A DNA stretch of 32,410 nt from Candidatus Methanovirga australis (GTDB lineage: Archaea > Methanobacteriota > Methanobacteria > Methanobacteriales > Methanobacteriaceae), in NCBI GenBank assembly GCA_031272765.1, contig JAISTD010000096.1, positions 1-32,410 of the forward strand, in the 5' to 3' direction. Every line of letters starts with the position of its first letter. Positions within the stretch are counted from its first letter, which is position 1. The notes beneath the pieces are model-generated. The model did not search any database and had not been told where the DNA came from. It saw only the letters and a program-made list of their open reading frames with translations. Below, piece after piece: positions 25,736 through 26,514 of this stretch. The translations under genes and the position numbers were made by a program.

Positions 25736-25820
25736 TCCAATACAAAGTTTTTTTACATTTAAAAACTTTAGTTTTTGAATTTAGATAATCATTGATTCCG
25801 AACAAAATGAAGAACTTAGG

Positions 25821-25917
25821 GAACGAAACTCACATTGTTGTGAACAAAATCTGAAATAATAGAATCCTCACTGGTCGATGTCTATAAGAACGAAACTCAC
25901 ATTGTTGTGAACAAAAT
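25821..25917. repeat. Two perfect 30-bp direct repeats separated by a 37-bp spacer (CRISPR-like geometry, no cas genes in the window)
   Basis: gaacgaaactcacattgttgtgaacaaaat at 25821-25850 and 25888-25917; internal hairpin TCACA-TTGT-TGTGA. Spacer ctgaaataatagaatcctcactggtcgatgtctataa. Confidence 0.85.
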
Positions 25918-26094
25918 GAAGAACATAGAAAAACGAAGTTTCTGTTATTATATTTAGTTAAAATAATTATTAATTTAATTATATCTTTAAATTAAATTTT
26001 ATAAAAGAAATTTTATTCATTGAACGGAAGTTGTGTAACGAGTTCTCTAATTTAATGTGAAATAAGTAAAATTTGAAAATATTGATTGTGACAA

Positions 26095-26240
26095 GCCCAA
26101 TGTCATCAACTTAACGATTTTTATTTAAATTGAGTTTTATATTTTTCATGATTTTAAATAAATTGCAAATTTTTTTATATAAATTTGTCTAATTTTTTAC
26201 GAAAATATTTAACCAGATTTCTTAAGTTGATGACATTGGG
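26095..26240. mobile_element. Putative ~146 bp MITE-like element
   Basis: Perfect 19-bp terminal inverted repeats cccaatgtcatcaacttaa (26096-26114) / ttaagttgatgacattggg (26222-26240); AT-rich non-coding interior; flanked by gacaa at 26090-26094 and 26241-26245. Confidence 0.6.
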
Positions 26241-26514
26241 GACAACTGTTAATATTCTTTGAACATTTATGTCTTTAACTAATATTAATGGATTAATAAT
26301 GGTGTCTTCATGGAGTTGCTCTTCGGACAAACTGTTTATAATGAACTTAGGAATATATTATTGGTAAATTGAAGATAAAAGGTAAAAGAGAATTATCTAT
26401 CAATCACTGAAAATCCTTTGGATTAAATTTTTGTTCATCGAGTCAGAATTGTTAGATAGGCTCATGTTTAAAAAAAAAGAAAAGAAAAAGTTGAAAATAA
26501 AAAATAGATATTGA

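Follow-up and report, generated by a model that had tools for sequence, protein, structure and literature searches.

The unit at positions 26098-26238 of the window, by which we mean the whole 32,410-nucleotide stretch of Candidatus Methanovirga australis DNA analyzed here, is very probably a MITE derived from an insertion sequence of the IS4 family (IS4 subgroup) that has lost its autonomy, and the copy found here was later rearranged. The dispersal of the family, its shared ends, and its 10-bp target duplications are directly observed, and these copies have almost certainly been moved by an IS4-type transposase. In this reading, the MITE has lost the transposase gene but kept its 17-bp ends, which a DDE transposase of the IS4 type would bind, pair, cut, and rejoin; acting in trans, such a transposase would excise the unit and insert it at cuts staggered by 10 bp, giving rise to 10-bp direct repeats.

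The host is a methanogen whose draft genome comprises 236 contigs totaling 2.44 Mb. The window is contig 159 of this assembly and carries genes for methyl-coenzyme M reductase and a methyltransferase complex, as named from their translations. Upstream of the MITE, the last part of the neighboring gene is 99% identical to that of the termite-gut species Candidatus Methanovirga procula (G002), which makes the host a close sister of this species and not a Methanobrevibacter in the narrow sense. Other repeats are common in both genomes. A short unit, gaacgaaactcacattgttgtgaacaaaat(gaagaac), occurs twice at 25800-25920 of the window, with one copy fewer at this locus in Ca. M. procula, and similar units are scattered through many intergenic regions of the host and its relatives. 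Elsewhere in the host (L009, ~2200-2500; G000:C113) are further abundant repeats of ~110-160 bp, which recur dozens of times across the genomes of the host and Ca. M. procula.

The initial annotation described a MITE-like element of 146 bp with 19-bp perfect terminal inverted repeats. The arms at 26096-26114 and 26222-26240 are indeed perfectly complementary and lie 107 bp apart, and within 400 bp in the window there is no other perfect inverted repeat that long, short AT palindromes aside. Across copies, however, only the 17 bp CAATGTCATCAACTTAA are conserved, and the outer two bases read CC, AC, CA, GC, TT, AG, AT, or GG. Because these outer bases differ among copies, 26096-26097 and 26239-26240 (cc and gg here) belong to the flanks, and the element is 141 bp rather than 146 bp long. 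The features of the locus are as follows:

26098-26238, no strand assigned: MITE, 141 bp, with 88-99% identity to the aligned Methanovirga copies from two genomes.
26098-26114, forward strand: left terminal inverted repeat CAATGTCATCAACTTAA, 17 bp.
26222-26238, reverse strand: right terminal inverted repeat, 17 bp, the perfect complement of the left one.
26088-26097, forward strand: left 10-bp flank gtgacaagcc, the same in the MITE-free orthologous locus of Ca. M. procula (G002:C156) and hence native locus sequence.
26239-26248, forward strand: right 10-bp flank gggacaactg, which matches GGGATAACTG in MITE-free transposase paralogues and is hence native transposase sequence.
26239-26425, forward strand: fragment of a decayed transposase gene, ~187 bp, starting exactly at the MITE end and absent from the Ca. 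M. procula orthologue.

The interior between the arms is AT-rich and without an ORF, as first described. The longest reading frame stays below 45 aa in the measured copies of 129-155 bp, and the MITE encodes no transposase.

The unit is far from unique in its genome, whereas uniqueness was one of the outcomes that the initial annotation had named as refuting its reading. A search of the host with the 19-bp query, allowing up to 3 mismatches, returned 30 matches against 2 for the reversed control, and strong nucleotide-search matches mark at least 13 sites in the host and about 13 (12 or more) in Ca. M. procula. Outside these two genomes, the nucleotide search found one copy in a further genome (G001) and, elsewhere, matches at the level of the ends only; the exact 17-bp ends are present in 7 of 139 genomes of the host's family. 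Most copies measure 129-155 bp. The Methanovirga copies aligned from two genomes are full length save for internal deletions, and the nearest relative of the window MITE is 99% identical to it. Two copies from other genomes have only the ends and the general layout in common with it (64-69% identity). There are two length classes, which differ by an ~11-bp insertion (taagacgat-) near the left end. One insertion is shared by both sister species, measuring 365 bp in the host (L076 375-740, G000:C138) and 151 bp in Ca. M. procula (L067 359-509, G002:C67); apparently, ~214 bp of another repeat are nested inside the host copy. At another site, a related MITE directly adjoins a CRISPR-like array with the repeat atttcaatttcaaaatgatcttatttaaac (L097 2500-3340, G022:C231).

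The flanks of these copies establish the size of the target duplication. Among 30 end pairs, which include a few shared by descent or formed by alternative pairings of one end, the two 10-bp flanks match at 10/10 positions in seven and at 9/10 in three, while flanks mispaired from different copies reach 9/10 or better in ~0.3% of cases. Examples are gtttcaaatt, tgctaatgac, cttcatgacc, gtttaaatag, tgttttacac, ctctcttagg, ggataataga, and atattatcac; at L061 and L063, the duplication is displaced by one base. Many copies have no recognizable duplication, which is what age or recombination would be expected to produce. The family thus duplicates 10 bp, not the 5 bp (gacaa) initially proposed. A 320-bp relative of the MITE with a perfect 10-bp duplication splits a serine/threonine kinase gene (L098 2485-3855, G022:C282); joining the kinase flanks with a single copy of the 10 bp gives a 347-aa frame with a Pkinase match at E=1.4e-35, in a scan whose query had four erroneous first residues outside the matched domain. 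Multiple copies, dispersal, conserved ends, and genuine target duplications elsewhere in the family bear out the MITE reading. The suggested search for empty sites yielded no clean one for a Methanovirga copy: at G000:C13, G000:C113, G002:C73, and G002:C151, the flanks are missing, the insertion is shared, or the locus is rearranged. Ten joined flanks used as a combined query returned filled sites only among the few candidates scored, and a lead in G001 from this query proved to be a repeat at a different locus.

Both the ends and the duplication point to the IS4 subgroup, whose ends follow the consensus -AATR--------WTW and whose direct repeats are 10-13 bp long (De Palmenaer et al. 2008, PMC2266710). 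The 17 bp CAATGTCATCAACTTAA fit this consensus (Table 1, PMC2266710), and the 10-bp duplication falls within the range. The full-length insertion sequence with the same ends that the initial annotation had proposed to look for exists in bacteria such as Clostridium hydrogenum, where a 1593-bp autonomous IS4 element (L228 873-2465) is bounded on either side by exactly the same 17-bp inverted repeats and flanked by a 10/10 duplication, tttgggcgta. Its 444-aa transposase scores 158 bits against NF033592 (cut-off 115) and has the DDE and Y(2)R(3)E(6)K motifs, as do the host transposases L102 and L107. IS4 transposases also lie next to the exact end on contigs of Marinobacter, of Clostridium tepidiprofundi, and of one further record. 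The exact 17-mer occurs in more than 100 stretches among the matches listed, mostly from gut Clostridia (one genome per species). These bacteria carry the IS4 end in great abundance, and it frequently forms short, non-autonomous pairs that have duplications of 9-10 bp.

Among the 139 searched methanogen genomes of the family, no autonomous element with the exact 17-bp ends was found. Methanovirga does have IS4 transposases, both intact and decayed, several of which adjoin a related end, CAATGCTGTCAACTTAAG, and none of which has the exact end; near each of two intact host transposases lies a single recognizable end of related but different sequence. Either the methanogen partner has been lost, or it is missing from the assemblies, or a related element does its work despite the slightly different ends. 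When archaeal IS4 transposases were screened automatically for paired ends around them, AT-rich noise made up most of the output, along with a few genuine pairs (CAATGCTGTCAAGTTAAG and CATTCCTAGAAACTTAAG types). In viral contigs, one extended end had no match, the other had a single unpaired match, and no IS4 transposase was found. An ISL3-type transposase near L097 and L099 was rejected as a candidate, its Pfam matches being weak and the ends not flanking it as a unit.

The window copy differs from its relatives in its surroundings. Its flanks, gtgacaagcc and gggacaactg, are alike at 6 of 10 positions with gacaa in register inside both, as would be expected of a simple insertion whose own target duplication, be it gacaa or the two 10-mers, has been worn by mutation. 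However, ~7% of mispaired flanks reach 6/10 or better, so that finding gacaa in register is probably a coincidence. The two flanks also derive from different sequences, because each matches a different MITE-free one: at the orthologous locus on contig 156 of Ca. M. procula, the MITE is absent and the left flank is kept up to ...TTGTGACAAGCC, after which other sequence follows, while the paralogues L327 and L328 read ...aaaaagatg GGGATAACTG... with no MITE there. Since each 10-mer is native to a different sequence, a real duplication at this copy finds no support, and at 99% identity to its nearest relative the window MITE is too young to have lost four of ten duplicated positions. On these grounds, we regard a simple insertion as unlikely. 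On the right, the interior of a transposase gene starts immediately at the MITE end; a paralogue of this gene in L087 matches Pfam DDE_Tnp_IS240, and ~190-bp homologues of the fragment at 26239-26425 lie at many sites in Ca. M. procula and the host. Because the DNA to the left is that of the original locus and the DNA to the right is the inside of an unrelated transposase pseudogene, the window copy lacks a matching target duplication and lies at a junction formed by recombination or deletion. Either two MITE copies recombined or a deletion ran from the MITE end; each would account for this junction, and the copy would have been caught in such a rearrangement after its insertion.

The fragment abutting the MITE also raises the question of whether a host transposase of another family mobilizes it, for instance one from an IS240-domain element, such transposases being abundant in the host and their remnants adjoining the MITE. 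At G000:C104, moreover, one IS240-type copy adjoins a lone MITE end. The ends of that element are nevertheless different by eye (of the cccattgaattttttacacagtcg type), for which reason its transposase was rejected as a partner, and it looks inserted beside or into the MITE end. Since it is IS4-family elements that the ends of the MITE and its 10-bp duplication match, mobilization by another family is very improbable. We give still less credence to a conserved structural RNA, attenuator, or transcription terminator in which the long stem is the function. The MITE is intergenic in the window, and a transcript would form a strong stem (-31.9 kcal/mol, z = -5.5), but such a stem follows from the inverted ends in any case. 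The copies are, moreover, dispersed at unrelated sites with 10-bp duplications, one of them inside the kinase gene, and the sister species lacks the unit at the orthologous locus. A conserved RNA or terminator was the other outcome that the initial annotation had set against its reading, and no Rfam family matches at the gathering threshold across the whole window.

A non-autonomous IS4 derivative thus remains our preferred reading, and its place among known systems can be described. With the IS4 subgroup, it shares ends that fit the consensus and the 10-bp duplication, the C. hydrogenum element adding a transposase with DDE_Tnp_1 and the YREK motif; it differs in having no transposase gene and in being 141 bp long, as against 1400-1650 bp. 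The C. hydrogenum element likewise has its own transposase, and it belongs to another domain of life. MIC231 cassettes, of the IS231 subgroup of IS4, are non-autonomous IS4-family units mobilized in trans that carry passenger DNA. The MITE resembles them as a non-autonomous IS4-family unit but carries no gene, and it does not fit the IS231 end consensus CAT-------AA--TAA, since IS231 ends begin CAT and the third base of the MITE end is A. MIC231 is cited in PMC2266710. Archaeal MITEs have been described in Sulfolobus and haloarchaea, according to the accessible text of a review (PMC10969869), and the present family is likewise short, multicopy, and non-coding, with IS-like ends. The hosts are different, and that portion of the review lists no MITEs from Methanobacteriales and gives them as apparently absent in Methanobacterium thermoautotrophicum (PMC10969869). 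The term 'insertion sequence' is absent from the literature examined on this termite-gut lineage, and mobilome-category pseudogenes accumulate in a close relative (PMC11287868). As far as could be found, the family is new in this genus and of an ordinary, well-known kind.

Letter-identical ends on bacterial elements, mostly from gut Clostridia, and on MITEs of gut-dwelling methanogens, for which no archaeal autonomous partner is seen, could reflect a trans-domain mobilization, in which IS4 elements from neighboring gut bacteria founded the methanogen MITEs or kept them active; we hold this to be unlikely. The gut Clostridia themselves harbor a large unexplored population of MITEs with the 17-bp IS4 end.

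The mechanism itself is ordinary. What this analysis documents is a family of IS4-type MITEs from the termite-gut Methanobacteriales, for which we found no earlier description of MITEs, and it ties that family to a precise end and a 10-bp duplication. In genomes rich in decayed insertion sequences, its copies mark points of rearrangement and interrupted genes, and they probably contribute to the fragmentation of the assemblies.
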